From positions 1-38,542 of IMG/VR virus record IMGVR_UViG_3300013130_000001: DNA of 38,542 nucleotides. One strand, given 5' to 3'. Under the pieces are notes generated by a model. The model did not search any database. It had not been told where the DNA came from and was given only the letters and a program-made list of their open reading frames with translations. Of this stretch, positions 11,247 through 38,542 are shown one piece after another. Every line of letters starts with the position of its first letter. The first letter of the stretch is position 1. Position numbers and translations under genes: made by a program. The stretch comes from a virus.

Positions 11247-11247
11247 C

Positions 11248-11532: not shown

Positions 11533-11541
11533 CTCATCCTC

Positions 11542-11574
11542 CTATCCGTTTATCCGTTTCCCCATCCGTTGACA
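11542..11574. repeat. ATCCGTTT-family repeat, copy 4
   Basis: CTATCCGTTTATCC, GTTTCCCC, ATCCGTTGACA. It fills the whole 43-bp gap between the 92-aa and 94-aa genes and ends at the RBS of the latter. Confidence 0.88.
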
Positions 11575-11575
11575 C

Positions 11576-11854: not shown

Positions 11855-11871
11855 CTCACACCTCCTCGTCT

Positions 11872-11916
11872 TCTATCCGTTTATCCGTTTCCCCATCCGT
11901 TGACACCGTTGACACC
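11872..11916. repeat. ATCCGTTT-family repeat, copy 5
   Basis: CTATCCGTTTATCC, GTTTCCCC, ATCCGTTGACA, then CCGTTGACACC again. On the minus strand it encodes the last residues (GVNGVNGWGNG) and stop codon of the methyltransferase-like gene. Confidence 0.88.
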
Positions 11917-14692: not shown

Positions 14693-14723
14693 CGCCTATC
14701 TGTTTGTCTGCTCGCCTGCCCGG

Positions 14724-15891: not shown

Positions 15892-16647
15892 CTACACGTC
15901 CAGCCCCTGCTTGCGGTACTTCGACTTCAGCCGCGCGTACGCCCCCACGTCCCCACTATGCCGCAGCTTCGCCTTCTCCGCCTCGAACTCGGCCCGCAGG
16001 TCCCGAGGTGCAGCCGTGCCTGTCGCCGTGTTGACCTTCGTGACCCCGGCCTCCGTCAGTGCTTCCGTCCTGGCTGCCTGAGTCGCCTGGTCTACCACAG
16101 TCCGTTGCTCCTTCGTCAATGCCTCTGCCTGCAGCGTCTTGATCTTCGCCGCGCTCCTGGCCAGCCGCGCCAATCCATCCCAGCTCGGTTCCTCGCTCCA
16201 CTCCAGCCCTGGCGTGTCCGCGGACAACTGCAGGTCGGCCAGCAACTCCGTCGCCTGCTGCATGATCGCAGCCCGTTCCTGCGCCCGGATCGCTTCCTGT
16301 TCCTGCGCCGTCCGCATCTGCTCCATCTGCTGCTGGTAGTACTGCGCCACCTGTTCCGGCTCCGCGTCTGCCAGTCGCGCCGTCTCGATCTGTCGCTGCA
16401 TCTCCTGCATCTGACGCTGCGTCTCCGCCAGTTGGGCCTGCAACTGCGCCTCGCGCCTGTCGCGTGCCGCCTGCCACCTGCGGAACTCGTCCGACTGCGT
16501 CAGATCCACCGGCTTCTTCTGCTCGGCTATCGGCTGCTGAGCCTCGGCTGTCGGCTGGACCGGCTCACCTGCCGCACCACCAACTGCGCCCTCTGCGCCT
16601 GTCGGCTGTCCACCAACTCCTGCGCCCTTCGTCAACTCCTCGCTCAT
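15892..16647 (-). CDS. Capsid scaffolding protein
   Basis: A 251-aa protein from ATG 16647 (after GTGAGGCAG). The first 50 residues are a disordered Gly/Pro/Gln tail. Residues 55-125 form a long Q/E-rich coiled coil (QAQLAETQRQMQEMQRQIET, QQQMEQMRTAQEQEAIRAQE). The C-terminus is basic and helical (AKLRHSGDVGAYARLKSKYR), as expected for capsid binding. Size, composition and position just upstream of the capsid gene are typical of scaffolds. One copy of the palindrome (16215-16226) lies within the gene as LSAD. Confidence 0.82.
   Translation of the reverse strand: MSEELTKGAGVGGQPTGAEGAVGGAAGEPVQPTAEAQQPIAEQKKPVDLTQSDEFRRWQAARDRREAQLQAQLAETQRQMQEMQRQIETARLADAEPEQVAQYYQQQMEQMRTAQEQEAIRAQERAAIMQQATELLADLQLSADTPGLEWSEEPSWDGLARLARSAAKIKTLQAEALTKEQRTVVDQATQAARTEALTEAGVTKVNTATGTAAPRDLRAEFEAEKAKLRHSGDVGAYARLKSKYRKQGLDV
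16215..16226. promoter_or_regulatory. Palindrome TGTCCGCGGACA, copy 2
   Basis: Perfect 12-bp palindrome followed by AC, as in copies 3 and 4. It lies inside the scaffold gene, 507 bp from the intergenic copy. Confidence 0.75.
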
Positions 16648-16660
16648 CTGCCTCACACCC

Positions 16661-16695
16661 CTATCCGCTTATCCGTTCCTTCGATCCGTCGATAC
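16661..16695. repeat. ATCCGTTT-family repeat, copy 6 (degenerate)
   Basis: CTATCCGCTTATCC, GTTCCTTCG, ATCCGTCGATACG. A diverged copy on the scaffold side of the 16648-16808 gap. Confidence 0.65.
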
Positions 16696-16709
16696 GTGCT
16701 CCTGGAGAC

Positions 16710-16767
16710 GCGCTGGCAAAACGAGTTCCCGCTGTCCGCGGACAACCCGCACCCATTCTGCCAGCGC
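16710..16767. promoter_or_regulatory. 58-bp concentric inverted repeat around palindrome copy 3
   Basis: Arms GCGCTGGCA (16710-16718) and TGCCAGCGC (16759-16767) are perfect inverted repeats. Their centre, 16738.5, is exactly the centre of TGTCCGCGGACA (16733-16744). It lies in the 161-bp gap (16648-16808) between the holin-like and scaffold genes, flanked on both sides by ATCCGTTT repeats. No gene, promoter or T-run terminator was seen inside. Candidates: partition centromere, operator, or recombination/resolution site. Confidence 0.65.
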
Positions 16768-16778
16768 GCCTCCTAGAG

Positions 16779-16810
16779 CATCCGTTTATCCGTTCTCCCC
16801 ATCCGTTGTC
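16779..16810. repeat. ATCCGTTT-family repeat, copy 7
   Basis: CATCCGTTTATCC, GTTCTCCCC, ATCCGTTGTC. It abuts the 3' end of the holin-like gene. Confidence 0.8.
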
Positions 16811-17357: not shown

Positions 17358-20300
17358 TCACTTCTTCGCCCACCGCCCGACGATCCACGGCACCCCCCGC
17401 GCCCGGTACGGCTTCTCGTACGTCTTCTTCTCCGGGCCCCACGGCGATGGCGTCTTCAAGAAAACCTTCGGCACCCGCCGCGCCGTCTGCGCGAATACCC
17501 AATCTGGTACCGTCGTCGGTCGTCTGGCCTTCCCCTTCTTCTTGTAATAAGTGCGCGGCCGGTATGCCGCTCGCGCCTTCTTCCCGCCCCCCACGCCCGC
17601 CGCGTACCCTGCCCCCGCCGTCGTCTTGCCCTGGTAAAAGTACGCCCACATCCCGTGTCCGGCCTGCGCCCCCCAGGCATCCCGTGCATCAAAGTACTCC
17701 CCGATCTCCGGATGCTCCTTCTTGAACGCCGTCCGCTCCGCACCGGACAAATCATAGTACCGGCCCAGCGTATCCTGGATGCCCGGCCACTCCTTATCCG
17801 CAAGCGCCTGGAACTCGTCATTCTGCTCCCGCGCCGCTGCCCAATCCGCCGGCGTCAGCCACTCCGCGCCCTGATTCTGCGCCTTCCAACCCGTGAGCCA
17901 CTCCAGCGCCTTCTGGTACTGCTCCGCCGTCGCCGTCCCGCGTGTCTCTGCGTCCAGCACCAGTTGCACCAGCGTATTGTCGCGCGCTCCCTGTCCCATC
18001 TTCCCCGGCGGCAACTGCTCGTTCAGGAAATCCCAGAACGCGCTCGACGCCTGCGCCAGCACCCGCTCCTCCTCCGGCTTCCTCAGCGTCGTGGCCTCCC
18101 CCACGCCCGGGAACGTCGTGCCCTTCAGCGCTTCCCGCAGCTCCTCCTCCGTCCACCGCCCCGGATATTCCTGCTGGATGCGCGCGATCAGCGCCGTTGC
18201 CTGCACCTTCCCCGCTGCCTCGATGATCCCCTCGTACGCCTTCCCCTTCTCCATCCCGCCCTCGACCGCCCGGTTGTATGCCTCCCACGCCGGGCGATAC
18301 ACCGTATCCTCCCACACGCGCTGCGCCGCTTCCAATGGCCGGTCGTTCCTGCGCCAGTACGTGGTCACCTCTTCCTGGTCCACGTCCGCCAATAGCTCAG
18401 CCGGCTGCCGTCCCATCACCCCCGCCACCGCCGCCAGCCGCTCGTCTGTTCCCATCCGCTGCGGAAGCTCCTGGAAGAATTGCGCTACCGCCGCGTTGTA
18501 GGCCTCGTAATCCGGCTGCCCGTCCACCTGGAAATCCGCCACGTGCGGCATCGCCGAGGATACGATCCCCAGCACCTCCTCCCGCCGGATCTGCGCCGCT
18601 TCCTCCGGCGTCGCCCCGTACGTCGTGCGCGGTTGGTAGACCGCCGCCGCCCGCTCCTCCCCCTCCCCGATCCCCAGCTCCATACGCACCCGCTCCAACT
18701 CCGCCTGCCGCTGCTCCTCCATCTCCTTCACCTGCTCACGGTTCCACGGCTGCTGCCGCAGAATCGCGTCCACTGCCTCGTCATACGTCCGGTTGATCTC
18801 GTCCCGCCGCTGGTTGTACACGTTCGAGGTCACCGCCTCACCCGGCTTCCAGCCCGCGTACTCCGCCGCCCCCGGCAAGGCCGCCCGGGCCAGCCGTCGC
18901 GGGATCACCTCCGGGTGCGCCTGCCGCCACTGCAGCAGCTCCTCCCGTGTCCCCGTCCTGGTCAAGGGCGCGTACATCGCCCCCCGCTCCTCCCGCTCCA
19001 ACTCCACCTGCCGCCTCTCCCCCGCCGGGTACATCGACAGTGGCACACCGGCGAAGAACGACGTCCCGGCCCTCAGCCCCCGCTCCAGCCCCGCCCGCCT
19101 GGTCGCCTCTTGCAGCAAGCCCTGCGCCTCCTCCAGCTCTGCCTCGCTCCAGCCCTGATCCCTGGCCACCCGCAACACCGCGCTGCTGGCCACCGGCGCG
19201 CCCCGCGGACGCCCGCTCTCCCAGCCCATCGCCTCATTCTGCCTAAGCTCCCCCGCCTCCACCAGCCGCTGCAGCTCCTGTGCGCGCAGCGCCGCCTGGC
19301 TCAGCCCCGGTTCCTCCGCCGCCATGTTGCCCAGCATCCTGGCCACCCGATACGCCCCGAACGGCTCCTGCTCGGGCAACCCGGCCGCCCGCCGCGCCCA
19401 CGCCTCCACGTTCACCCCGCCCGGTGGTCCGACCCCCGCCGCCGCCGTCACCGCCTGGATCGCCCCCGTGTGTGGCAACACGAAGCCCATCTCTTCCTTC
19501 TTCCCAATCCAACCAAAGTATTGGAGAGGCCACTCGATGAATCCATAAGTCCGCAATCCGAGCCGCTGCCCTACCCGGTAGATCTGCTCCACCACGTTGC
19601 GCGGCTCCTCCTCTGCCATCTCCGTCCCCCCGATTTGCGCCCACGGGAACAGAATATTCGTCGGGTTGAAGAACACACTGCCGCCTGTCCACTTCGCCAT
19701 CCCAGGGATGGGAATCTCCATTGCCCCTGCGAAGCGTGGCCGGTACCCTCGCTCCTCGCTCGCCCGTTGCGTCGCCTTCTGATACCGCACGTAGGCCGCC
19801 ACCAGCCCCGGCCGTTCCATCCCCCGCAGCGCCCAGTTGCGCGCCGAGCGGGTCATCCAATAAGTATAAGGGCACACCATCCCGATCCACTGGTCGAACC
19901 TCTTCCGCCCGCCGGCATAATCCAGGTTCGAGAAATCCGCCGCCTGCCGCGCCACGTCCACCGCGACGGTCCGCGTCTGGCTCCATTGCCGGGCCAGCTC
20001 CCCCTTCACCCACTGCATGATCCGCTCCCTCGTCGCCGGCGGCACCGGCGCCATCTCCTCCGCCACCGCCAGGTCCGCCTTCGCCCACTGCCTGACCCTC
20101 TCCAGCGCCCGCGCCTCCGTCTCGTGCTGCACAGCCGTCATATCCGCCAGCGTCGGTGGCAGCGCGTACCCGCCCGCTGCCGCTGCCCGCCGGTCCGCCC
20201 GCATCACGTCCTCCGTCCCCCACGCACTCCACGCCGTGCCCACTGCCGCCGCCTGCCCCTGGGCCCCGGCCTCGATGATCCCGCGCGCCTCGTCCCGCGC

Positions 20301-23300
20301 TCGTCTCACGTCCGCCCAATTGTCGTACCAATAAGTCCTGACCACCCGGTTGTTCTCGTCCAACAAATTCAGCCCGTACATCCCGGCCGCCTTCTCCGTC
20401 GTCGCCCCCACCGCCCCCACCGGCACGTCCAGCGCCTCCCCGATCCGCCTCCCTTCCTCCGCCAGGCCTGCCCGCGCCCGCGCCATCTCCTGCAAATCTG
20501 CGTATCGGTCGGCTAGCGCCGCCTGCTGCTGCTCGAATCCCACCATCGCCCGTCCCCGTCCCAGCCGCTGCTCCTCCGGCACCATCTCGATTGCCCTCTC
20601 CACCACCGGCCGCTGCACCATCGGCCGCCGCACTTCCCGCGCCACCGGGAAACCCGCCGCGTCGTACGTTCCCGGCGCCGCCACCATCACCCGGCTGCCC
20701 CCCGCCCGCCGCCTGGCTTCCTCTGCCAACTCCTGCCAGCGATACCCCACCGCCGACTCCGGCTCCATTCCCACGCCGAACGCCGCTTCCCTCACCGGCT
20801 GCGAGAGCTGGCTGAGCACCGCCTGCCGTCGCTCCGGCTCTATCGCGTCAATCTTAGCCGGCCGTCCCGCTCCCGTCCTGAGCAAGTCACCCTGGCCGAT
20901 CTCCTCCGTGAGCCTCTGGCGCTGCGCGAACGTCAGCCCCTGCACCTCTTCGTCCGCGAATCCGCTCTCCCGCAGCACCCAGCTCATCGTCTGTTCCGCC
21001 GCGGTCCGCGCCTCCCCCGTCAGCTCCGCCACCCGTTCCTGCTCCTGCGCGAAACTGAGCCGCCCCCGCCGCACCATCGCCTCCTGGCCACCGACCTGTC
21101 CCCACTCCGGCAAGCGCTCTGCCTCCAGCGCTGCCACCGAGCGCCTCCCGAACTCGTCACCCAGCAGCCGCGCCTCCTGCGCCTGACCGTCCGCGTAACG
21201 TGCGACCTCGGCCCACTCCTCCATCGAAGCCGCTTGAGGGCGTACCCCCATCGATCGCGCCACGTCGTCCACGCTCTGTGGCCACGTCAACTGCATCCCC
21301 TGCTCCACCGTCCTCGGGGCGATGGCCGCCGCCTCTGCCGCTTCCTCCACCGCCGCCTGTCCCAGCCGACCCGCCGCGCTCGCCCGCGTCCCCGCCTGGT
21401 CGCCCAACGACCGCGCCTGCTCCGCCACCCTGCGCCAGTCCTCCGCTGACCAGTCCGCCGAGCGCGCCACATCCAATCCTGCCGCGCTCGCCACCTCCAT
21501 CAGCGTCCCCCGCAGCGCCTCTTCCAGCGGCACCGTCGGCGCGTTGAGCAGTGGATCCCACCTCACCCCCGCCCCCAGCACCGCCGCCACCTCCTGCGTC
21601 GCCAGCTTTGCCGCCTCCTCCGCCGGCCACCCCAACGCCTGTAGCGCCTTCTGCTGCGCCCCCGGCGATAATGGCAACTGCGCCAGCTCCCACCGCGCCA
21701 GGTCCCAGCCCTGGCTCGCGTCCCTGAAATAGTCCCGCCACACCTTGCTGGTCGTCTCCGCGTACTGCGCCTTGCTCATGCGCCCCTGCAGGAACATCGC
21801 TCGGGCCCGAGCTGCTTCGTCCGCCGCCGCCCGCGCCAGCCGGTCCACCCCATCCTGCGTGCTCAGCACCACGTCGAGGCCATCCCGTGTCGGGTTCATC
21901 CCCATCAGCCGCCACGCCTCCGCCTCCGCCGTGTCCACCGTCAGCCGTTGCGCGTCCAGCATCTCATCGAAGTTCACGAAATCTTCCAGCCCCATCCGCC
22001 GCAGCCGCTCCTGCCTGGCCGCCACGTCCCCCGCCAGCGCCCGCAACTGCGCCAGGCTCTCCTCCACCAACTGCTTCGCCGGCCGCCCCGTCAGCTCTTC
22101 CAGCGTCTCCCCCGCCCGCAGCCGCCCGACCTGCTCTACCCCATCCTGGAGCCGTGCCAGCACCGCCTGCTGGTTGTCCAGGTGCAACTGTTTCACCTGC
22201 GGGAAGTACGTGCCCCACACCGCCGCCGAGCTTTCCCCTTCCTTCACCCGCCGCCAGGCCTCCGCCCGCAGCGCGTCGGCTGCCGCCCGCGTCTCCGCGT
22301 TCATCCGCCCCGTCTCCGCCCGCACCTGCCGGATCAGATTGGCCGTGTCCTCGTCGAACTGCCCGCCCACCGCCTGGATCAGCGCCTCCTCCGTCTGCCG
22401 GATGCCCGCCTGTCCCGGCGCCAACGCGTCCGCCAGCGTATCCGTCGCCCGGACGACGTCGTCCTCGGCCACTCCCAACGACGCGCCCAGCGCCTCCATC
22501 CAGCCCTGCTCCTCCCGCAGGTCCTGCACCGCCTCAAAGTCCGACCACACCCGTCGGCCCGGAGGTGTAGGATCTGCCGCAAGCGCACGACCAAAGTTGT
22601 CCCGGCTCGCCGCCAATGCCGCGTCTACCGCCTCGTCCACCTCGTCTACGTTCGTTGCCTGGCCCAGCGCCTTTTCCAACTGCAACCGCAACCCCACACT
22701 CAGATCGTCCGGATGATCCAGATATGCTCCCACACTCATCAAGCGCCCCGTCCCCTCCCCCGTCACCCTGGCCACCACCTCCGCCATCTCGTCCGCGTTC
22801 AAACTGCCTGCCAGACCCGCGTTCAACGCCCGCACCGTGTCCGGGTCTAGCAGCTCCGCCAGCTCGTCCGACAGCGCCGGCGTCCACATCTCCCCCAACG
22901 TCTTCTTCAGCGCCGAGTAGAACGCCCGCGTGTACCGTCCCTCCTCCTGCTGGCCGATCACTGCACCCCAGCGTCCCGATAACTCTCCCAGCTTCCCCGG
23001 CAGTCGTGTGCCCGCAATCTCTGCCTGTGAGCCCGCCGCCGCTGACTCAGCCACCCGTCGCGTCGTCGGCCCGATCCTCTCCATGAAATCGTCGATCGCC
23101 CCCCGCCCGTCTAGCGAAGCCACGCCATCATACGCCATCGTCATCGTGTCGCCAATCGTGTTCCGGATCGCGTATCCCGGCGTCCGCAGGTAATACTCAC
23201 TCATCGTGGACCTGAATCCATCCACGAAACGCTGGTATCCGCTCTTCGTCTCGACCGCTGCCCCCGTCATCTCCAGCGCCCGTTCTGCCATCGCCGCGTC

Positions 23301-25235
23301 CAGGTCCGCCAGAAATCCCAACCGGTCGAACTCCCCCCCCCCCAGGCTGGGGAACTTCCTGGCGTCGCCCAGGTCATCCAGCACCTGCGCCAATAGCGGC
23401 CGTGCTTCTTCCGCCGCCTGGCTCAGCGGGATATTGCCCAATGCCCCCGTCAACGCCTGCGGATTCTCCACCATCGCCCGCACCATCGCCCGCGCCTCGT
23501 CCGCGTTCTCCACCTGCAATACCGCCGGCGTCACTACCTGGTAGGCCGTCCCCGCCATCGTCTCCGCCGTCGCCCGCGCCGTCGGTGCGAACGGATTGAT
23601 CCTCTCCCACAGCCGCCGCAACGCCCCCACCTGCTGCGCGTCGTCCGTCTTCCCCACTGCCACGGCCGCCTCGTCCACGTGCTCCAGTGCCCGCCCCACC
23701 CCCCGCGCCACGTCGTCCGCGTACTGCGCCACATCCTCCGCCGCCCCCGCCACCTTCGCTGCCTCAGGCGCCATCTCCGCCGCCTCCGCGAACCTGGCCG
23801 CCGCCCGCGCCTTGCGCGCCTCCATCCCCTTCTGCCACGCCCCGATGTCGAGCAAGTTCAGCGGATCCAGCCCCACCTGGAACAGCAGCTCGTTCCACGT
23901 GTCGCTCTGCCCCGGGATCATCCCCGTCTCCTTCACCTGCTGCGCCGCCGCCGCCGCCGCGTCCTCCCCCTGCCCCCGCCGGACCCCCTCGATGTACGCG
24001 TGGAACGCGGTCATATCCTCCGCCGTCGGGTTCATCACGTTCACCTGCCGCCCGTTGGCCACCACCTCCAGGTCCTCCCCCGCCATCAGCCGGTCCAGCC
24101 CGGCCGTTTGCGCCTCGTACGACGAATACCCCAATCCCGTCGCCAGCCGTCCCAGCGCCTCCTGCACCTGTGGTATCTCCCCGTACGTCTGCCTGGCGTA
24201 CTCCCGCAGTGAGGGCGTACCCTGCCTGCCCGCCGCCAGCACACCCTGCTGTGCCAACCACAACGGCATCCCCTTCTCCTGTGCCACCTGCGCCGCGACC
24301 GCCTTCTGCTCCTCCGTCATCTGCGTCGCCGGTGCCAGCGACCACAACCCATACTCGCCCCCCACCCGCTGCCCGATCCCCTTGCTGATCATCTCCTCCG
24401 TGGCCATGGCCGGCGCCTGCAGCACCTCCATCCCCGTCCCCGCCACCGCCCCCACCGTCCGCGCTGCCGGCCCCACCACCGGCAGTCCCTTCGTCTGCCG
24501 CCACGCTGCCCCCGCCATCTCCATCGCCCGCCCACCTGCTCCCCCCAGGATCTCCCCCACTGCTTCCGGTCGTGCCTCGCCGCCAGCAGGAGCTCCCCCC
24601 ATCGCCGGGGCAGCCCACATCTCCGCCACCCCCACCGGCTTCCCCGCTCGAGCCGGCCCCACACCCTGCGCTGCCACCTCCGCCACCGTCGGCCCCGCCT
24701 CCACCGGCTGTCGCAATCCCCGCCAGATCTCCCCGATCCTCCTGGAGATGCGCTCCGCCGTGTACGCCGGCCCGGACCGCTTCAGCCAGCGCGCGATCGC
24801 CGTCGCCCCTGGCAACTCCGGCGCTCCTTGCATCCACGCCGGCAACCCCGGCCTCTCCCTTCCGGCCGGCGCTGCCCCTGGTGCACCCGGCGCACCGGTG
24901 ACCTCCGGTGGCACACCCACCGATGGCACTGCCCGGGGCCCCGCCTGCGTCCTCAGCACCGTCGGCAGCATCAGCTGTCCAGCCAACGGCGAGGGGCGCG
25001 CCGTCACCACCGGCGTCGCGGCTGCAGCCGCCCACGGCGTCGGCGCCTGTGGCCCGATCCACGGCCGCCCGGGTACCGGCCCCGCTGTAGGCACGCCCGC
25101 CGCCGCTGGAGCAGCCGGAGCCGCCGGGCCTGCGGTCTCAGGCGTACGCCACCACTGCCGCCCCAGTCCCGCCTTGCGCTGCGCCTCCTCCTGCTTCTGC
25201 CGTACCCTCGGATCCTGTGATACCGGTCGTGCCAT
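17358..25235 (-). CDS. Giant 2625-aa virion-associated protein, probable ejection protein
   Basis: One open frame of 7.9 kb, a fifth of the genome. Residues 1-100 are Pro/Ala-rich and disordered. About 300-1600 is mostly helical, rich in Ala, Glu, Gln and Arg, with a YYLRTPGYAIRNTIGDTM motif near 680. Near 1780-1870 a conserved-looking block reads DYAGGRKRFDQWIGMVCPYT, YWMTRSARNWALRGMERPG, then GMAKWTGGSVFFNPTNILFP. The tail has EWPGIQDTLGRYYDLSGAER and a very basic C-terminus. No polymerase, protease or lysozyme motif was recognised. Placed between portal and scaffold, it resembles large polyvalent or internal virion proteins injected with DNA. This is inference. Confidence 0.6.
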   Translation of the reverse strand: MARPVSQDPRVRQKQEEAQRKAGLGRQWWRTPETAGPAAPAAPAAAGVPTAGPVPGRPWIGPQAPTPWAAAAATPVVTARPSPLAGQLMLPTVLRTQAGPRAVPSVGVPPEVTGAPGAPGAAPAGRERPGLPAWMQGAPELPGATAIARWLKRSGPAYTAERISRRIGEIWRGLRQPVEAGPTVAEVAAQGVGPARAGKPVGVAEMWAAPAMGGAPAGGEARPEAVGEILGGAGGRAMEMAGAAWRQTKGLPVVGPAARTVGAVAGTGMEVLQAPAMATEEMISKGIGQRVGGEYGLWSLAPATQMTEEQKAVAAQVAQEKGMPLWLAQQGVLAAGRQGTPSLREYARQTYGEIPQVQEALGRLATGLGYSSYEAQTAGLDRLMAGEDLEVVANGRQVNVMNPTAEDMTAFHAYIEGVRRGQGEDAAAAAAQQVKETGMIPGQSDTWNELLFQVGLDPLNLLDIGAWQKGMEARKARAAARFAEAAEMAPEAAKVAGAAEDVAQYADDVARGVGRALEHVDEAAVAVGKTDDAQQVGALRRLWERINPFAPTARATAETMAGTAYQVVTPAVLQVENADEARAMVRAMVENPQALTGALGNIPLSQAAEEARPLLAQVLDDLGDARKFPSLGGGEFDRLGFLADLDAAMAERALEMTGAAVETKSGYQRFVDGFRSTMSEYYLRTPGYAIRNTIGDTMTMAYDGVASLDGRGAIDDFMERIGPTTRRVAESAAAGSQAEIAGTRLPGKLGELSGRWGAVIGQQEEGRYTRAFYSALKKTLGEMWTPALSDELAELLDPDTVRALNAGLAGSLNADEMAEVVARVTGEGTGRLMSVGAYLDHPDDLSVGLRLQLEKALGQATNVDEVDEAVDAALAASRDNFGRALAADPTPPGRRVWSDFEAVQDLREEQGWMEALGASLGVAEDDVVRATDTLADALAPGQAGIRQTEEALIQAVGGQFDEDTANLIRQVRAETGRMNAETRAAADALRAEAWRRVKEGESSAAVWGTYFPQVKQLHLDNQQAVLARLQDGVEQVGRLRAGETLEELTGRPAKQLVEESLAQLRALAGDVAARQERLRRMGLEDFVNFDEMLDAQRLTVDTAEAEAWRLMGMNPTRDGLDVVLSTQDGVDRLARAAADEAARARAMFLQGRMSKAQYAETTSKVWRDYFRDASQGWDLARWELAQLPLSPGAQQKALQALGWPAEEAAKLATQEVAAVLGAGVRWDPLLNAPTVPLEEALRGTLMEVASAAGLDVARSADWSAEDWRRVAEQARSLGDQAGTRASAAGRLGQAAVEEAAEAAAIAPRTVEQGMQLTWPQSVDDVARSMGVRPQAASMEEWAEVARYADGQAQEARLLGDEFGRRSVAALEAERLPEWGQVGGQEAMVRRGRLSFAQEQERVAELTGEARTAAEQTMSWVLRESGFADEEVQGLTFAQRQRLTEEIGQGDLLRTGAGRPAKIDAIEPERRQAVLSQLSQPVREAAFGVGMEPESAVGYRWQELAEEARRRAGGSRVMVAAPGTYDAAGFPVAREVRRPMVQRPVVERAIEMVPEEQRLGRGRAMVGFEQQQAALADRYADLQEMARARAGLAEEGRRIGEALDVPVGAVGATTEKAAGMYGLNLLDENNRVVRTYWYDNWADVRRARDEARGIIEAGAQGQAAAVGTAWSAWGTEDVMRADRRAAAAGGYALPPTLADMTAVQHETEARALERVRQWAKADLAVAEEMAPVPPATRERIMQWVKGELARQWSQTRTVAVDVARQAADFSNLDYAGGRKRFDQWIGMVCPYTYWMTRSARNWALRGMERPGLVAAYVRYQKATQRASEERGYRPRFAGAMEIPIPGMAKWTGGSVFFNPTNILFPWAQIGGTEMAEEEPRNVVEQIYRVGQRLGLRTYGFIEWPLQYFGWIGKKEEMGFVLPHTGAIQAVTAAAGVGPPGGVNVEAWARRAAGLPEQEPFGAYRVARMLGNMAAEEPGLSQAALRAQELQRLVEAGELRQNEAMGWESGRPRGAPVASSAVLRVARDQGWSEAELEEAQGLLQEATRRAGLERGLRAGTSFFAGVPLSMYPAGERRQVELEREERGAMYAPLTRTGTREELLQWRQAHPEVIPRRLARAALPGAAEYAGWKPGEAVTSNVYNQRRDEINRTYDEAVDAILRQQPWNREQVKEMEEQRQAELERVRMELGIGEGEERAAAVYQPRTTYGATPEEAAQIRREEVLGIVSSAMPHVADFQVDGQPDYEAYNAAVAQFFQELPQRMGTDERLAAVAGVMGRQPAELLADVDQEEVTTYWRRNDRPLEAAQRVWEDTVYRPAWEAYNRAVEGGMEKGKAYEGIIEAAGKVQATALIARIQQEYPGRWTEEELREALKGTTFPGVGEATTLRKPEEERVLAQASSAFWDFLNEQLPPGKMGQGARDNTLVQLVLDAETRGTATAEQYQKALEWLTGWKAQNQGAEWLTPADWAAAREQNDEFQALADKEWPGIQDTLGRYYDLSGAERTAFKKEHPEIGEYFDARDAWGAQAGHGMWAYFYQGKTTAGAGYAAGVGGGKKARAAYRPRTYYKKKGKARRPTTVPDWVFAQTARRVPKVFLKTPSPWGPEKKTYEKPYRARGVPWIVGRWAKK

Positions 25236-32847: not shown

Positions 32848-33557
32848 CGCCGATACCCTCGCCGTCTCTCCGCCGACTGAGGGTCCTTCACCTTGGAGGT
32901 CACCGGCGCCTGTGCGCCTCTCCGCACCTGCTCCACCACCAGCCCCACGCCCACCTTGCCCTGCTGCGCCTCCAGCCAGCGCGCCCACGCCAGCAAGTAC
33001 TCAGGCGTCGCCCACTCCAACCCCGCCAGCTCCGATAGCACCGGCTCCAGCACACCCATCTTCCCCAGCACGTCCAGCCGCGCTGAGTCCGGTTTTCCGG
33101 ACTGCGCGTCCCCCCCCATACCCCCCCCTTGTTGTTGTTGCTTTGCTCTCATGTGAGTAACGTATCTTTTGATAGGAATCGAAATATGTTCCATCTCAGA
33201 GCTCCCAACAACAACATCAATCATGTCCACGTCAGTCCGGTTTTCCGGACTGAGTCTCGTGCCCGACTCTCCGGTCTGCTCAAAGTAGAATGTAAGTTTA
33301 CCATCGCCATCTACGTCGGTGTAACGAAGCACACCCCTATCCCGCAAATGGTCAATGTGTGCATACATCTGACTTCTACTCAGCCGGCAGAGCCTGCACA
33401 GGTCCTTAAATCCAATCGGGTCGGTCCGTCGGTAATGGTGGCGCCACCCCAAACCCCAGATCCGAATCCCGGTAAAGGCTATCGCCCTCGGCAAATCGCC
33501 ATACACTAACTCAATCGGCACACTCACGTACTCTGGAGGGAGTGCGTAGTCAATCAC
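32835..33557 (-). CDS. Replication organizer / initiator-like wHTH protein
   Basis: A 240-aa protein from GTG 33557 after GGAG. Residues 10-90 form a winged helix (PPEYVSVPIELVYGDLPRAI, FKDLCRLCRLSRSQMYAHID, GVLRYTDVDGDGKLTFYF) as in phage and plasmid replication initiator N-termini. A polar linker with QQQQGGGMGG separates it from a C-terminal helical domain (VLSELAGLEWATPEYLLAWA, RWLEAQQGKVGVGLVVEQVR). This two-domain layout is typical of lambda O/DnaD-type organizers. No helicase or polymerase is encoded, so host enzymes would be recruited. Next to ParB it forms a rep-par-like pair. Inferred function. Confidence 0.68.
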   Translation of the reverse strand: MIDYALPPEYVSVPIELVYGDLPRAIAFTGIRIWGLGWRHHYRRTDPIGFKDLCRLCRLSRSQMYAHIDHLRDRGVLRYTDVDGDGKLTFYFEQTGESGTRLSPENRTDVDMIDVVVGSSEMEHISIPIKRYVTHMRAKQQQQGGGMGGDAQSGKPDSARLDVLGKMGVLEPVLSELAGLEWATPEYLLAWARWLEAQQGKVGVGLVVEQVRRGAQAPVTSKVKDPQSAERRRGYRRWGS

Positions 33558-33963
33558 CCATGCGCTCCTTCCACTCCAGGACTTCTTCCTCCGTAAGCTG
33601 AAGCGGCAACTGCATCATCGTTGGGTGCTGCACCCGCATATCGATCAACAAGTCTACCAGCTCATAGATCAGCCGGTCCACGTGTTCGCTGTGGAACACC
33701 ACCACGAACTCCCGCCCATTCGACAGGTGACCAACCCTGCGCTCCTCCGGCTTCGCCAGCGCCAGGCCCAGCAAGCCCGCCCACCCCTTGTTCTCTAGCC
33801 AGATCTCCTGACCGCCGGGCACTGTACGCAGCCATACCTGCGCGCCCTCGATCTCCCGCAGGAACAGCAACTCGTCGCCCTGATGTGACAACGTTGTTCC
33901 TTCGTTTTTTTCGTTTGAGCCTGCTGCTGTGTCTGGCATTGCTGTTTTGTGGTCTAACCACAC
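33550..33963 (-). CDS. Hypothetical early protein upstream of the replication gene
   Basis: Up to 137 aa from GTG 33963, with an ATG at 33939. A TTG at 33891 has the best RBS (AAGGA six bases before) and would give 113 aa beginning SHQGDELLFLREIEG. The protein has alternating beta strands (AQVWLRTVPGGQEIWLENKG, NGREFVVVFHSEHVDRL) and two helices (IYELVDLLIDM, LTEEEVLEWKERMGD). No family recognised. It overlaps the replication gene start by 8 bases, so the two are coupled. Confidence 0.62.
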   Translation of the reverse strand: MWLDHKTAMPDTAAGSNEKNEGTTLSHQGDELLFLREIEGAQVWLRTVPGGQEIWLENKGWAGLLGLALAKPEERRVGHLSNGREFVVVFHSEHVDRLIYELVDLLIDMRVQHPTMMQLPLQLTEEEVLEWKERMGD

Positions 33964-33976
33964 TGACTATGCGAAC

Positions 33977-34210
33977 CTACTCGCCAACCTCGACCGTATT
34001 GTTTTCCCTTCTCTTGGCTTTCTCCGCTTCAATTTCGTCACACATCGCCATCAGATCCATCAGCGCTCCCAGGGCGCTCGTTCCAGCTCTGAAGTTGGGG
34101 CTCCCCGAGTGCGACCGACGCGGACGCACGTGCGCAAACCCTGCATGGATGTCGTTCATACGACTGAACAAACGAAGAAGATCGTTATAAAACTCTTCAT
34201 CTGTGGCCAT
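33977..34210 (-). CDS. Hypothetical small early protein
   Basis: A 77-aa protein with ATG 34210 after GAGGGGGC. Two helical segments (DEEFYNDLLRLFSRMNDIHA and GALMDLMAMCDEIEAEKAKR) are separated by a basic loop (HVRPRRSHSGSPNFRAG). No family recognised. It is the first gene after the roughly 1-kb RNA-like region. Confidence 0.62.
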   Translation of the reverse strand: MATDEEFYNDLLRLFSRMNDIHAGFAHVRPRRSHSGSPNFRAGTSALGALMDLMAMCDEIEAEKAKRRENNTVEVGE

Positions 34211-34623
34211 CGCATTGCCCCCTCTGCTTCTCCCGCCCGCAACTTCCGACTACACCTGTTATGACAATGCTCAATTCTTCTAGCGCCTGGCGCAATCCCC
34301 CCCTCCCCCGACCAGGCTGCCGGCCCACCGTATCCTCGCCATCCCCATCATTCCCCCGGTGATCCGGCCCGGCTGCTGATCAGACACCCGCCCGCATCCC
34401 CGCCACCCCTGCTCGCCCCGTCACCTTCGCCAGCCTTGCCCTCTCCCGCTGGCCTGCGCAGCCCCCTCACTCCCAGGGACACGCCCCTCGGCAGTTCCTC
34501 ACGCTGCGCGCCCTGCCCTTCCTTCGAGTTCGTCGGGAGGCCTACTCCGGGATCAGCCTCCCTTTCGACATCACCTCGCGCCACCACCAGGTGCAGCTTA
34601 TGACAGTGGCCCGGTCCTTCGAG

Positions 34624-34649
34624 GGGTAGTTCCCTGCACTCAACTACCC
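34624..34649 (-). other. 8-bp hairpin in the RNA-like region
   Basis: GGGTAGTT (34624-34631) and AACTACCC (34642-34649) with a 10-base loop. No T run on either strand, so not a terminator. Confidence 0.6.
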
Positions 34650-34780
34650 GTCACACCCTCTGGCCCCGGTGGCGCAATATGGGTATCGTTGTAAAGGCGA
34701 CGGCCGTTAAGCCTGGCCATCCCGTCCGTCGCCACCGCGTCAAGGGGCGTCCCCCTGTCTGGCAGCTCGCCTTTCGGCCT

Positions 34781-34984
34781 TCAAGTCACCGAACAGATGC
34801 GACCACCACCACCGCGCATGTGCCGGCGGGTATGCTTCCGGCCCAACCGCACACCAGCAGTACCGGCGCCAGACTCGCCACCGCCGGAGGTCAACACCAC
34901 CATCCGCCGGTGCTTCTTTACCCGTGCCCGCTCGTGTCGTCCTGGCCGTCGCGCCGAACGTCGTCTATCGCTCGGTCGTCCCAT
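34781..34984 (-). CDS. Doubtful small basic ORF inside the RNA-like region
   Basis: A 67-aa frame with GGAGG seven bases before ATG 34984. The product is extremely Arg/Gly-rich (RRRSARRPGRHERARVKKHR, then RRHMRGGGGRIC) with no periodicity or recognisable fold, and codon use is mixed. The RBS is the only positive sign. It may be an incidental frame over structured RNA. Confidence 0.22.
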   Translation of the reverse strand: MGRPSDRRRSARRPGRHERARVKKHRRMVVLTSGGGESGAGTAGVRLGRKHTRRHMRGGGGRICSVT

Positions 34985-35029
34985 GGTCGGTTCCTCCCGC
35001 GTGTACTCACGCACGCCTACTCCGCTATT

Positions 35030-35091
35030 CCCGCACGCCAGGACTCGAACCTGGCGAGGTTATCATCTCGCGCCACCCGGATCTCGTGCGG
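35030..35091 (-). ncRNA. 62-nt tRNA-like element, D-arm and variable loop missing
   Basis: Minus strand. The 5' CCGCACG (35091-35085) pairs perfectly with 3' CGTGCGG (35037-35031), a 7-bp acceptor stem. The T-arm is canonical (CCAGG, TTCGAGT, CCTGG). A hairpin CGAG ... CTCG carries the loop ATGATAAC, whose TGATAA part equals the anticodon loop of tRNA-Ile(GAT). Only 30 bases lie between acceptor and T stems against about 41 normally, with no D-stem or variable loop. CCA is not encoded. It is either a degenerate tRNA, an RNase P or tRNA-enzyme mimic, or a domain of a larger RNA. Confidence 0.6.
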
Positions 35092-35098
35092 ACGATCA

Positions 35099-35228
35099 GG
35101 CTCCGGACTTACACTACAAACCCAAACTGCCAGCTAGGTATATTCTGTTTTTGTCTTGGAAGTCTCCACTGTCACGATGCAGTCCGGAGCCCGCCGGTGC
35201 CCCCACTCTCCCGCCCGCCAAGACAAAA
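35099..35228 (-). ncRNA. Two crossing 11-bp inverted repeats (pseudoknot-like)
   Basis: GGCTCCGGACT (35099-35109) is complementary to AGTCCGGAGCC (35181-35191); TTTTGTCTTGG (35149-35159) is complementary to CCAAGACAAAA (35218-35228). The pairs interleave, so the transcript could fold as a pseudoknot or switch between two helices. It begins about 30 bases after the stop of the 38-aa membrane protein and ends 8 bases before the tRNA-like element. Confidence 0.6.
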
Positions 35229-35257
35229 GAGCAGGAATACCGGCCGGCCCCGCACCC

Positions 35258-35374
35258 TCATTGCACGTTCATCAGCGCCCCGATCAGCACGAACGCGATC
35301 AGCAACCCCACCCCCACGATCAGCAACAGAAACACCAGATTCAACACCTGCTGGCATCCACCCGGCTCATCCAT
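35258..35374 (-). CDS. 38-aa single-span membrane peptide
   Basis: ATG 35374 follows GGAGG by about 7 bases and overlaps the previous stop by 8 bases. The peptide is MDEPGGCQQV, then a membrane helix LNLVFLLLIVGVGLLIAFVL, then IGALMNVQ. Too short for family assignment. The clear RBS, coupling and uniform hydrophobic helix support a real gene. Small single-span early peptides can block superinfection or affect host membranes; no specific role is claimed. Confidence 0.72.
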   Translation of the reverse strand: MDEPGGCQQVLNLVFLLLIVGVGLLIAFVLIGALMNVQ

Positions 35375-35882
35375 GCTCTGCCTCCAACAGCGCCTTCCAC
35401 TCCCCACTCTCGTGCAGCTTCAACAAATCGTATCCGGCTTCCATTGCCCGGCAGCACAGGCATAATCCCGTCTCCCAGTCCACCGGGTTATCCGGCTCCT
35501 CCAGAAACGTGCACCTCGCGCACCGAGGTCTCCTCGGCCTGGCTGCCTTCCTCTTCTTGCCAAAGTATTTGCCCCGCTTGCCGCGCAGTTCCTCCGGCAA
35601 CACCCGGGCCGCGTACCGCGCCACGACAAACTTGCTGAGCCCCGTCTGCTGCGCGATCCAGTGGAACGATCTCCCCCTCTCACGCCATTCCACCAGCCGC
35701 TCGACCGGCAGCACCTCCTCGGGATGGTACTTCTTCCTCTGGCCCTGAAACTGCATCAGCTCTGTCGGCAGCACCTTCCGCCCGTACGTGATCGCCGCGC
35801 CGCGCTTCACCTTGTACAGCCGGTCAATCCTCGCGAACGACAGCCCCGCCTTGCGCAGCCTGATGAACTCCTCGACGCTCAG
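35367..35882 (-). CDS. Double-HTH and zinc-finger DNA-binding protein, probable CTG start
   Basis: About 171 aa if started at CTG 35882, which overlaps the upstream stop as CTGA; no ATG, GTG or TTG lies nearby in frame, and the next in-frame starts are about 150 bases upstream inside another gene. Two similar HTH units are seen: FIRLRKAGLSFARIDRLYKV with AAITYGRKVLP, and LVEWRERGRSFHWIAQQTGL with KFVVARYAARVLP. A basic linker (GKYFGKKRKAARPRRPR) is followed by a four-cysteine knuckle (CARC ... CLCC). It is a good candidate early regulator, perhaps of the late promoter, but the target is unknown. Confidence 0.7.
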   Translation of the reverse strand: MSVEEFIRLRKAGLSFARIDRLYKVKRGAAITYGRKVLPTELMQFQGQRKKYHPEEVLPVERLVEWRERGRSFHWIAQQTGLSKFVVARYAARVLPEELRGKRGKYFGKKRKAARPRRPRCARCTFLEEPDNPVDWETGLCLCCRAMEAGYDLLKLHESGEWKALLEAEHG

Positions 35883-36139
35883 TCGCCCGGCGAGCGCACG
35901 CCAACCAACACCACGTGCTCCTCCCGCACCTCCGAGTTGAGCACCACCCGCACCGGCAACTCCACCGCGCTCAGCAGCCCGACCAGCACCAGCACCGTGC
36001 GAATGTCCGGCGCCTCGATCCTTCCCACCTGGCATCCCCGTTCCTCCCCAAACCAGCGGCACTCCACCTTCAGTTCGACCCCGCAGCGTGGCCGCGTGAT
36101 CAGCTTCCGCTCTTCCCCATCACTCAGGACATCGTCCAT
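35879..36139 (-). CDS. Hypothetical early protein
   Basis: An 86-aa protein; ATG 36139 follows GGGGGTG within the upstream gene. Likely beta/alpha: KLITRPRCGVELKVECRWFG, DIRTVLVLVGLLSAVELPVR, VVLNSEVREEHVVLVGV. No family recognised. Its stop TGA overlaps the proposed CTG start of the next gene. Confidence 0.6.
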   Translation of the reverse strand: MDDVLSDGEERKLITRPRCGVELKVECRWFGEERGCQVGRIEAPDIRTVLVLVGLLSAVELPVRVVLNSEVREEHVVLVGVRSPGD

Positions 36140-36347
36140 AGCGCACCCCCTGCATCCACTTCCGCCCTGCGTTCAGCCCCAGCCACACCCGCCCCAGCGC
36201 CTCGCTCACCCGCTCCGCCTGCTCCTCGTCCAGCAGGCCCTTCTGCAGACTCAACAGCGCCAGCGCCTCCAGCACCTCCAGCGCCTCAGTCGCCAGCGCA
36301 ATCTTCGCCTGGTCCGCTTCTACGGCCGCAATCGTTGCCCGCCTCAT
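36120..36347 (-). CDS. Hypothetical helical early protein
   Basis: A 75-aa protein, nearly all helical (VEADQAKIALATEALEVLEA, LALLSLQKGLLDEEQAERVS, EALGRVWLGLNAGRKW). It overlaps the preceding membrane protein gene by 62 bases and the next gene by 20. The long overlap is unusual, but both frames look coding. No function recognised. Confidence 0.55.
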   Translation of the reverse strand: MRRATIAAVEADQAKIALATEALEVLEALALLSLQKGLLDEEQAERVSEALGRVWLGLNAGRKWMQGVRYGRCPE

Positions 36348-36699
36348 CGCTCATCCCCCCGCTCCCCACCACGCGCAGCGCCCCCGCCACGGCCGCCATC
36401 CCCGCCCTCTCCATCCGCTTGTCCTGCCGCCAGTGCAACACCTCGCTCCGGATCACCAGCGGCAGCCCGTGCATCGCCGACCACAACAGCCACAGCCCCG
36501 CCAGCGGCGCACTCACGAAGCCCATCGACACCGCCATCAGCAGGTGCCCCCCCACCACCGTCCAGTACATGCGCCGCTCGCACACCTCCAAGCCCCTCGG
36601 CGTGCTCAGCGCCAGCGCGTACAGCCCCGCCAGCACCATCCCCACCAGCCCGGCCAGCGCCAGCAGCCCCCAATGAATCTGTACCTGGATCTCGATCAT
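36286..36699 (-). CDS. Small membrane protein, two to three spans
   Basis: A 137-aa protein; ATG 36699 overlaps the previous stop as ATGA. Hydrophobic spans: LLALAGLVGMVLAGLYALAL (about 11-32) and MYWTVVGGHLLMAVSMGFVS with LAGLWLLWSAMHGLPLVI (about 43-80). The last 30 residues, overlapping the next gene, look less constrained. No family recognised. It forms a pair with the upstream two-span protein. Confidence 0.62.
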   Translation of the reverse strand: MIEIQVQIHWGLLALAGLVGMVLAGLYALALSTPRGLEVCERRMYWTVVGGHLLMAVSMGFVSAPLAGLWLLWSAMHGLPLVIRSEVLHWRQDKRMERAGMAAVAGALRVVGSGGMSDEAGNDCGRRSGPGEDCAGD

Positions 36700-37190
36700 C
36701 GCTCCCCCTGTAGCGCGGGCGTGGGACCTGGACACGCCGTCGGCACCGCAGCATCCACGGTCGCGAAGGAGGCGGGCCACACTACCCGGCACCGATAGTT
36801 CACGAAGATACCGCCGGCTTGCTCAAGGCCGGCAGCTTCCTTCCCACGCCCGCGCTGGAGCGCCTCAGCCGGTCGTCGGGAGGATGACGATAAGAGGATT
36901 GTGATTGTGGGCGGGTGGCTTCGGCGCTCCGTGCAGAGCTGGAGACGACCGGCCCGGAGGGCGGGGTTGGGGATCCGGACGGACCGCACCCCAGCCCTGC
37001 ACGCAACACCGAAACTTAGCCGTACACCCGCCGCGAACACCAACAATAGACCGAGCCAATAGAACGGCTCGCACAACTGCACCCGCAAGCCATCCAACGT
37101 CCCCGTCGCACAACTGATCAGAAACGCTGCCGCCCAGCAGCGCATCGCCCACACCAGCAACTTACCCGCTTGTTGCTCTTCCCGGCTCAT
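36696..37190 (-). CDS. Membrane protein with unusual C-terminal region
   Basis: A 164-aa protein from ATG 37190, after GGGGAG. The first 70 residues hold two membrane helices (LLVWAMRCWAAAFLISCATG and FYWLGLLLVFAAGVRL). The rest is Pro/Arg/Ser-rich with no clear fold, and strand composition flips at about 36850-36970: the plus strand becomes purine-rich, unlike neighbouring genes. The stop overlaps the next start as ATGA, which supports the frame being used. The C-terminal half may derive from inserted or inverted DNA. Function unknown. Confidence 0.55.
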   Translation of the reverse strand: MSREEQQAGKLLVWAMRCWAAAFLISCATGTLDGLRVQLCEPFYWLGLLLVFAAGVRLSFGVACRAGVRSVRIPNPALRAGRLQLCTERRSHPPTITILLSSSSRRPAEALQRGRGKEAAGLEQAGGIFVNYRCRVVWPASFATVDAAVPTACPGPTPALQGER

Positions 37191-37326
37191 CCTGCTCCCC
37201 TTGCGGCTTCGCCCACTTCTGCCGCTCCTCATCCCACCGCCAGCCCAGGCTGACCGCCAGCCAATACAACCCCGCCAACAACTGCCCTGCCCGCCCCGCC
37301 GGTGCCCGCTCCCCTTGTCCGTCCAT
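37162..37326 (-). CDS. 54-aa hypothetical early protein
   Basis: ATG 37326 lies 6 bases after the upstream stop, with GGGGGAG before it. The peptide is DGQGERAPAGRAGQLLAGLY, then WLAVSLGWRWDEERQKWAK and a polar tail: a short amphipathic helix with a Trp-rich end. It overlaps the next gene by 29 bases. No family recognised. Confidence 0.6.
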   Translation of the reverse strand: MDGQGERAPAGRAGQLLAGLYWLAVSLGWRWDEERQKWAKPQGEQDEPGRATSG

Positions 37327-37332
37327 CACTCG

Positions 37333-37473
37333 CTACTCCCCCTCGTTCCAGATCGGAACCTCGTCCCCGCTCGGCGTCTCCGCCACGTCCACTACCACCC
37401 ACCCGCCGACGTTCACGCCCAGGTCAACGTCAGTGTCCACGTCGCCGTCATCCGGTCCACCTTTCCACTCCAT
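37333..37473 (-). CDS. 46-aa acidic hypothetical early protein
   Basis: ATG 37473 is preceded by AGGAGGT with 7-base spacing. The peptide is strongly acidic (EWKGGPDDGDVDTDVDLGVN, then VGGWVVVDVAETPSGDEVP). Small acidic early phage proteins can mimic DNA or inhibit host enzymes, but nothing specific supports that here. It lies directly downstream of an ATCCGTTT repeat. Confidence 0.6.
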   Translation of the reverse strand: MEWKGGPDDGDVDTDVDLGVNVGGWVVVDVAETPSGDEVPIWNEGE

Positions 37474-37492
37474 CCGTCTCACCTCCTTTGTC

Positions 37493-37536
37493 GTCCGTTT
37501 ATCCGTTCTCTCTATCCGTTGACACCGTTGACACCC
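37493..37536. repeat. ATCCGTTT-family repeat, copy 9
   Basis: GTCCGTTTATCC, GTTCTCTC, TATCCGTTGACACC, then GTTGACACC. On the minus strand it encodes the tail VSTVSTDRENG and the stop codon of the zinc-finger protein gene. Confidence 0.85.
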
Positions 37537-37726
37537 GCTTCCCCTGCTGATTCTCCAGCATCTGTTCGAGCACTCCTTGCCTGTGAGTCTCCGCTACCAT
37601 CGCAGCCGCGTGCCTCGCACAAATGCTGTGCGACCCCGCCACCGAGCTGTACCTCACAACGGTGTGGATGCCCTCCGCCTCACACCACGGGCAGGTCACC
37701 TCATACTCGTCAGGCTCTACTCCCAT
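37499..37726 (-). CDS. Small zinc-finger-like early protein
   Basis: A 75-aa protein; ATG 37726 follows AGGGGGCAGGG. CPWCEAEG (C12, C15) and SHSICARHAAAM supply a CxxC plus H/C/H set for one zinc site, followed by a helix (AMVAETHRQGVLEQMLENQQ). The last ten residues are encoded by the ATCCGTTT repeat. It probably binds nucleic acid or protein. No family recognised. Confidence 0.65.
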   Translation of the reverse strand: MGVEPDEYEVTCPWCEAEGIHTVVRYSSVAGSHSICARHAAAMVAETHRQGVLEQMLENQQGKRVSTVSTDRENG

Positions 37727-37735
37727 CCCTGCCCC

Positions 37736-38002
37736 CTACACCGGCCGGAACAACTCCTCTGCCGGCATCCCGATGGCCGCCGCCGCCCGCGCCTGGCGCG
37801 CCGGCGTCCACACCAGACCCCCACGCATCAGCCCGTTCACCAGTGAGTGTGTGCATCCCATCTTCCTGGCCAGCTTCGACTGCGCCCCCCACCCCCACTG
37901 CTCCAGCACCTCCTCGATGCGCAGCTTGTCCTCGACCTCTTCGACCACCTCGTCCACGATCACCACCTGCCGTGGGATCTGCCTGGTCACCAACAACCTC
38001 AT
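37736..38002 (-). CDS. Cro-like HTH protein
   Basis: An 88-aa protein; ATG 38002 overlaps the upstream stop as ATGA. After a short beta start (LLVTRQIPRQVVIVDEVVEE) comes an HTH: RIEEVLEQWGWGAQSKLARK, MGCTHSLVNGLMRGG, then TPARQARAAAAIGMPAEELF. This matches a compact XRE/Cro fold ending in the usual A-IG-P--ELF helix. As second gene of the leftward operon, opposite a CI-like repressor, it is the natural Cro candidate that would act on the 38286-38361 switch region. Confidence 0.75.
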   Translation of the reverse strand: MRLLVTRQIPRQVVIVDEVVEEVEDKLRIEEVLEQWGWGAQSKLARKMGCTHSLVNGLMRGGLVWTPARQARAAAAIGMPAEELFRPV

Positions 38003-38250
38003 AGCCCCTCCCGCTTCCTGCCGATCTGCGCCATCGCCCGCCCCACGTCCGCGCTGCGCACCTCCGGCTGTGGACCCCGGGCCAGCATCTCGTCGATCCA
38101 CTCCACCACGTCCCGGTAATTCTCCGACGCCGTGAACGTCTCCAGCGTCGTCAACAGCTTCGCCGCCGTCACGCTCGTCTGCGCGCTGGCCGCCGAGCGC
38201 CGCTCGGCGGCGCACTCCTCACACCTCTGCCACGGCAAACACTCGCACAT
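37999..38250 (-). CDS. First gene of the lytic operon, Cys-rich N-terminus
   Basis: An 83-aa protein; ATG 38250 follows GGGAGGA and lies about 40 bases downstream of the predicted start from the 38297-38325 promoter. Residues 1-15 hold C2, C4, C10 and C13, a possible zinc knuckle. The rest is helical (AAKLLTTLETFTASENYRDV, VEWIDEMLARG). No family recognised. Its leading place in the early operon suggests an immediate-early host-takeover or regulatory role, which is inference. Confidence 0.68.
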   Translation of the reverse strand: MCECLPWQRCEECAAERRSAASAQTSVTAAKLLTTLETFTASENYRDVVEWIDEMLARGPQPEVRSADVGRAMAQIGRKREGL

Positions 38251-38285
38251 CTCGGTCCTCCCTTGCTACCCCGCCCCATCATCAC

Positions 38286-38328
38286 CACTTGATGGTATTA
38301 TAGCACAAATGAAAATCCCTGTCAAGTG
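38286..38328. promoter_or_regulatory. Inverted repeat bracketing the lytic promoter, operator candidate
   Basis: CACTTGA (38286-38292) and TCAAGTG (38322-38328) are a 7-bp inverted pair, one overlapping the start-site side and the other the -35 of the leftward promoter. Binding by the repressor or Cro-like protein here would block the lytic operon. Confidence 0.55.
38297..38325 (-). promoter_or_regulatory. Consensus promoter of the leftward lytic operon (PL-like)
   Basis: Minus strand TTGACA (38325-38320), 17-bp spacer, TATAAT (38302-38297): a perfect sigma70-type consensus. Predicted start about 38290, 40 bases before ATG 38250. Confidence 0.9.
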
Positions 38329-38350
38329 TTTCGTCCCCCCAAATTCAACC

Positions 38351-38361
38351 TGTGGTATAAT
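38351..38361 (+). promoter_or_regulatory. Extended -10 promoter of the repressor (PRM-like)
   Basis: TGTGGTATAAT with perfect TATAAT (38356-38361), a TGn extension and no clear -35. The predicted start (38367-38369) coincides with ATG 38369, so the mRNA would be leaderless or nearly so. Confidence 0.75.
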
Positions 38362-38368
38362 TTACGGA

Positions 38369-38542
38369 ATGAAGGAGACACTAGCGGAATGGTTGAGACA
38401 GAGATTTAGCGAAAACCCGCAGATCAACCAGACCAGCCTGGCCATCTCACTGAAGCTCGGTCAATCCACCATCTCCAACTGGCTGCGTGGTGTTGCTCTG
38501 CCGGATCCTGAGAATTGCCACAAACTAGCCACATACTTTCAC
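38369..38542 (+). CDS. XRE-family HTH repressor, 5' part (continues at position 1)
   Basis: Codons 1 to 58 of the 138-aa repressor: MKETLAEWLRQRFSENPQ, then the HTH INQTSLAISLKLGQSTISNW. From 38420 on the sequence repeats bases 1-123, and the frame continues to the stop at 366. There is no Shine-Dalgarno site between the -10 and the ATG, consistent with leaderless translation and weak self-limited expression typical of prophage repressors. It is divergent from the lytic promoter 44 bases away. Confidence 0.88.
   Translation, partial: MKETLAEWLRQRFSENPQINQTSLAISLKLGQSTISNWLRGVALPDPENCHKLATYFH
38420..38542. repeat. Right copy of 123-bp terminal direct repeat
   Basis: Identical to bases 1-123. 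Removing one copy gives a 38,419-bp circle. Confidence 0.95.

Follow-up and report, generated by a model that had tools for sequence, protein, structure and literature searches.

The question raised by this locus is what is carried by a gene-poor block of about 1 kb at positions 34211–35257 of an uncultured virus record (IMG/VR IMGVR_UViG_3300013130_000001), all 38,542 bases of which were analyzed and are referred to as the window. The block was read on the minus (transcribed) strand. A reading of the DNA made without database searches, here called the sequence-only reading, had taken it for a large structured RNA resembling the phage RNAs GOLLD and ROOL, with a tRNA-like element, many long inverted repeats and no credible gene, and had named a replication origin as the main alternative. 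The block is the untranslated neighborhood of a small early gene, not one giant RNA; ahead of that gene stands the tRNA-like element, which may serve it as a control element acting in cis.

Relatives were collected by means of the terminase. One related locus, L003, spans the entire block; another, L004, is identical to L003 wherever the two overlap, and the pair was counted as one sequence. A further locus, L021, was retrieved with a DNA pattern from the 3' block and covers only the 3' third, its wrapping contig ending before the remainder. In both the window and L003 the block is enclosed by the same flanking genes, one encoding a CxxC..CxxC motif (window 35936–35367) and one of 122/137 amino acids (window 33963–33550). 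In L003 the block is reduced to ~690–740 nt.

The tRNA-like element was located at 35091–35031 on the minus strand using an acceptor/T-arm motif (a 5-bp stem with the T-loop TTCRANNC and, at a gap of 0–1, a 7-bp acceptor helix). It consists of a 7-bp acceptor helix (35091–35085/35037–35031), a 5-bp T-stem (35054–35050/35042–35038) and a canonical T-loop, TTCGAGT (UUCGAGU in RNA; 35049–35043). The acceptor helix stacks on the T-stem without a gap to give a 12-bp stack, and a 30-nt middle replaces the D and anticodon arms. The syntenic counterpart in L003 (4141–4206) has a 7-bp helix, a single unpaired G, a 5-bp T-stem and the loop UUCGAUU. Between the two phages both sides were changed in 10 of the 12 base pairs, and pairing was retained in all 12. 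The distance from the end of the element to the GGAGGAA Shine-Dalgarno sequence of the following gene is 33 nt in each phage and that to its ATG 46 nt; a conserved GGAGTAGGC comes after the fold in both. The motif was present solely in the window and L003, each time upstream of the homologous small open reading frame (ORF). The other related loci, 152 kb in all, contained no match, nor did 400 windows simulated with a first-order Markov model (Markov-1). This is far above chance expectation. In L003 the T-arm fold was the minimum-energy structure, and folding z scores for the region of the element ran from −3.6 to −4.3. The compensated fold is the strongest result of the analysis, and it argues, from a single independent comparison, for a tRNA-like structure maintained by selection.

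Standard models do not recognize the element, whose middle is in both phages too short for D and anticodon arms. ARAGORN called a tRNA in neither the window nor L003, and the best of the tRNA-type Rfam models, tRNA-Sec, reached 13.6 bits in the window and 17.2 bits in L003 against a threshold of 47. By architecture the nearest tRNA-shaped model was mascRNA (RF01684), which aligned over its full length (1–56) to 35091–35031, yet its score of 14.6 bits is far under the gathering threshold of 42.5. On the opposite strand a CRISPR-repeat model scored higher, 18.9 against a threshold of 39, because the hairpin of the T-arm fits it. The tRNA mimic looks genuine and undescribed, with a putative function.

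The gene behind the element was missed in the sequence-only reading, and its statement that no credible gene is present was refuted. An ORF of 67 codons beginning MGRPSDRRRSARRPGRHERARVKKHRR occupies 34984–34781 on the minus strand, preceded by the Shine-Dalgarno sequence GGAGGAA (34997–34991). Its counterpart in L003 (4253–4477) is 57% identical. Over codons 1–28 there were 12 synonymous and 8 non-synonymous codon changes, and the 28 mismatches fell 7/5/16 on codon positions 1/2/3, a third-position excess with p=0.0015; exchanges of arginine codons between the AGR and CGN boxes occur among the synonymous changes. The substitution pattern points to a conserved protein-coding gene. The product contains 29% K+R and, being arginine-rich, is probably RNA-binding. 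Pfam, PHROGs and NCBIfam contained no family for it; searches of named phages and of the records of distant relatives gave no match, and one of the PDB gave no meaningful match.

A single early promoter, TTGACA-17-TATAAT with an extended −10 element (38325–38297, minus strand; 12/12 matches), was the sole sigma-70-type site found in 33500–38542. The block lies ~3.1 kb downstream of it, and the minus-strand operon to which the block belongs would be transcribed from this promoter; neither a promoter nor a terminator was found within the block. The assignment of a gene-poor stretch of about 1 kb to an early operon, as made in the sequence-only reading, was borne out by this promoter and by the co-directional genes, as was the presence of a tRNA-like element.

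The preferred explanation, with a probability of roughly 0.45, is that the leader of an arginine-rich early phage gene contains a tRNA mimic acting in cis. A control element acting in cis is favored because the distance to the Shine-Dalgarno sequence is fixed in both phages, GGAGTAGGC is conserved, and the next gene is arginine-rich. An early polycistronic transcript, presumed to be a single transcription unit, would carry a leader folding into the mimic, in which a true T-loop closes a 12-bp stack of acceptor helix and T-stem and proper D and anticodon arms are lacking. Most likely the mimic would regulate the arginine-rich gene; the gene's own product, or a host protein that handles tRNA, may bind it, and binding would control, as at tRNA-like operators, whether ribosomes gain access. 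Behind the gene, the G-rich stretch may bear further hairpins and space the gene from the next cistron.

Several observations weigh against this explanation. In the isolated window fragment the tRNA-like fold has a predicted energy of −22.6 kcal/mol and a competing fold −23.8 kcal/mol, so that the former lies 1.2 above the minimum, and with the full flanks a competing structure is the minimum-energy fold. L003 and L004 are the same sequence at the element, and the conservation is therefore one comparison between two independent sequences. The middles (30 nt in the window, 34 nt in L003) are dissimilar. The GC content of the small ORF by codon position, 0.69/0.69/0.62, is not gene-like, although its Arg/Gly content accounts for much of this. 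A direct link between protein and RNA is presumed in the model.

The remainder of the block was examined for further structure. Two perfect 11-bp inverted repeats lie on the minus strand of the window in the non-coding leader, both within the first 160 nt of the block: TTTTGTCTTGG/CCAAGACAAAA (35228–35149) and GGCTCCGGACT/AGTCCGGAGCC (35191–35099), the latter ending 7 nt before the tRNA-like element. The repeats interleave and could give a pseudoknot or two competing helices. In L003 a gene occupies the equivalent place. The number of stems of at least 10 bp was matched or exceeded in 7.7% of equal-sized windows; to call the block packed with long inverted repeats was thus an overstatement. 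Folding energy was ordinary: the stretch 34211–35200 gave z scores against shuffles of −0.31 (minus strand) and −0.41 (plus strand), and 160-nt windows averaged −0.35 in the block versus −0.32 on the rest of the minus strand.

The 3' part of the block (34780–34211, minus strand) is a G-rich stretch of fast-evolving, non-coding sequence, 480–570 nt long (~315 nt in L003). Codon periodicity was absent from the stretches on either side of the small ORF, including this one, and stops were present in every frame; between L003 and L021 the 3' part differs by indels of 1, 2 and 12 bases, mostly not multiples of three. A hairpin with the conserved core GGAYGGCCAGGCU near its apex (34733–34696, minus strand) is common to the window, L003 and L021 with differing stem sequences. 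In shuffles of the flanks the fractions were 0.17, 0.10 and 0.005, and the conservation of this predicted hairpin is therefore suggestive only. Farther on, a GCCAGC...GCTGGC hairpin (34453–34429, minus strand) has a likeness in L003, which also has GCCAGC/GCTGGC; at that place L021 has an unrelated 9-bp stem, GGGGGATGT/ACATCCCCC, directly ahead of AGCAAAGG. When the L021 stretch was shuffled, a stem of at least 9 bp appeared in 0.25% of cases.

Two candidates in the 3' part were set aside. The conserved hairpin loop CTGATCA was not counted, as it shows sequence identity rather than covariation. A conserved 25-nt block, CATAACAGGTGTAGTCGGAAGTTGC (34263–34239, minus strand), corresponds in L003 and L021 to codons HNSYSRKL at the beginning of a gene for a membrane protein, and was therefore excluded from the RNA argument; in the window it is apparently a remnant of that gene. 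Ahead of the membrane-protein start codon L003 (4745–4800) and L021 (255–305) share a nearly identical G-rich stretch of ~50 nt with a G-quadruplex pattern, GGGTAGGGGCGGGCCTCGTTGGGG, which the window does not have. In L003 the membrane-protein gene is interrupted at 4848–4990 by a ~59-bp unit, present twice and ending GAACAGAATCCCGACTCAGGGATTGAAATG, that looks like a CRISPR repeat; the L021 copy of the gene is uninterrupted.

Other explanations were weighed on this evidence. The element may be a processing signal for RNase P and/or tRNase Z, a minimal substrate in the polycistronic mRNA whose predicted cut near 35092/35091 would split the upstream genes from the arginine-rich gene. The window element has the 12-bp stack, the T-loop and unpaired flanks, and the tRNA-shaped Rfam model nearest to it by architecture, at 14.6 bits, is that of mascRNA, a product of cleavage by RNase P and RNase Z. 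One study describes minimal acceptor/T-arm model substrates (AT1, pMini) as being handled at the canonical site by the RNA of Escherichia coli RNase P (PMC11143913). Against this, the acceptor helix of L003 is prolonged, past a C-C mismatch, by a further long helix in which the cleavage site would be buried, and CCA or RCC is missing behind the element in both phages. The extended helix and the missing CCA speak against processing as the general function, and this explanation is considered rather unlikely. Decay of one or more tRNA genes, or the trace of an attachment site carried by a tRNA, would account for the canonical T-arm and for an anticodon-loop-like ATGATAAC in a 4-bp stem in the window middle. 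Against it, ARAGORN detected no tRNA in either phage, decay would not preserve 12 of 12 pairs across two sequence-divergent relatives, and no integrase was found among the proteins scanned; such an origin is quite improbable.

The proposal of a large structured RNA stood in part. Structured RNA is indicated by the tRNA-like fold and by hairpins that hold their places, and a new large phage RNA of the GOLLD/ROOL kind, to which both the leader and the 3' part would belong, the small ORF being embedded in it or a partner gene, could also draw on the two interleaved 11-bp helices. GOLLD and ROOL occur in phages, often beside tRNA islands, and their function remains unestablished (PMC12286853); an unclassified, uncharacterized RNA of ~800 nt in phage ICP1 is a precedent for such finds (PMC7567579). 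A single RNA of ~1 kb was nevertheless unsupported: the global folding energy is ordinary, a protein gene sits mid-block, and Rfam scans, GOLLD and ROOL models included, gave no match even at permissive thresholds. Compensatory mutations were seen in the tRNA-like fold. L003 is without the leader helices, and block length is not conserved. A giant RNA of this kind is accordingly unlikely. A replication origin is less likely by far. The block is non-coding in large part and lies in the early region, with a DNA-binding-like helix-turn-helix (HTH) gene and a ParB-like gene downstream; the supposed replication gene there gave only sub-threshold HTH matches. Iterons, an AT-rich stretch and an inflection of GC skew were all missing from a block that is GC-rich throughout, and the compensatory changes indicate RNA. 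The preferred explanation remains the tRNA mimic in the leader of the arginine-rich gene. A wider version of it, in which a half-tRNA (acceptor/T-arm), the arginine-rich protein and a structured 3' RNA would form an undescribed RNA-protein module for early expression control in an uncultured phage lineage, a bacterial counterpart of the mascRNA type, is considered rather unlikely.

Elsewhere the window encodes, among other proteins, an SU10-type major capsid protein, a terminase and a ParB-like protein; among the best matches to named phages the terminase is only 21–25% identical. At the DNA level the block had no match among phage records; the exact T-arm pattern had none in viral contigs, and neither the 3' block pattern nor a terminase profile had one in genome contigs. 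The ParB-like and zinc-finger-type neighbor proteins yielded no relatives when used as probes, and the downstream protein returned already-known loci only.

Of the window's perfect inverted repeats within 150 nt, the longest (15 bp, AGCGCGGGCGTGGGA) encloses 115 nt; it lies on the minus strand just ahead of a gene starting near 36700 and is adjoined by a 10-bp repeat (GCCGGTCGTC), the pair occupying 36712–36856 and 36868–36953. A 17-nt motif nearby, CGGAGCGCCGAAGCCAC, is identical in L003 and in a further locus, L028. These repeats (36712–36953) may form another structured element and, to judge by stem length, a stronger one than the block. Two copies of a hairpin around CAGTCCGGTTTTCCGGACTG (33089–33110 and 33232–33253) lie within the HTH gene, and the lowest plus-strand folding z score, −6.8, was that of a 160-nt window at 33121. 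On the minus strand, z scores of −6.5 to −3.1 around the major capsid gene (16641–16800, 15681–15840 and 14721–14880) probably mark terminators or late-gene hairpins. The same strand carries an ORF of 2625 amino acids (17358–25235), pieces of which had no PHROG family match, and, within the structural region, a cluster of sulfotransferase-like, methyltransferase-like and glycosyltransferase-like genes (10476–13291).

Mimics of the acceptor/T half of tRNA are known from eukaryotic long non-coding RNAs (lncRNAs), plant RNA viruses and artificial RNase P substrates. If the preferred explanation is true, a selected natural mimic of this half in a DNA phage operon, beside an arginine-rich gene, would offer a new setting for studying the use that phages make of host tRNA machinery or of tRNA-shaped operators. 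ARAGORN and Rfam overlook such elements; a simple acceptor/T-loop search combined with syntenic comparison detects them. Like the phage element, mascRNA and menRNA (RF01684; MALAT1 and MEN-beta) have an acceptor stem set straight on the T-arm, a canonical T-loop and reduced arms where a tRNA has its D and anticodon arms. The score falls short of that family (14.6 versus 42.5 bits), and mascRNA belongs to a eukaryotic nuclear lncRNA, whereas the phage element is known from sequence. In the leader of E. coli thrS a tRNA-like operator near the ribosome-binding site mimics an anticodon arm and is bound by ThrRS. Both are mimics of tRNA in a 5' leader near the ribosome-binding site of the adjoining gene; the phage element differs in mimicking the acceptor/T half and in having an arginine-rich protein gene as its neighbor. 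That small early protein, with its arginine-rich N-terminus PSDRRRSARRPGR, recalls the arginine-rich RNA-binding peptides of phages (lambda N type), although sequence homology was not detected and no nut/boxB-like site was identified. With GOLLD and ROOL the block shares its phage setting, a length of ~1 kb and little protein coding; it differs in the lack of a sequence or model match, an ordinary fold, an embedded gene and a tRNA-like fold that is not a tRNA gene. Also alike in outline are the minimal RNase P model substrates AT1 and pMini (PMC11143913), which likewise consist of acceptor stem, T-stem and T-loop only; the phage element, which is without a 3' CCA and whose helix in L003 extends past the acceptor, differs from them also in being natural.
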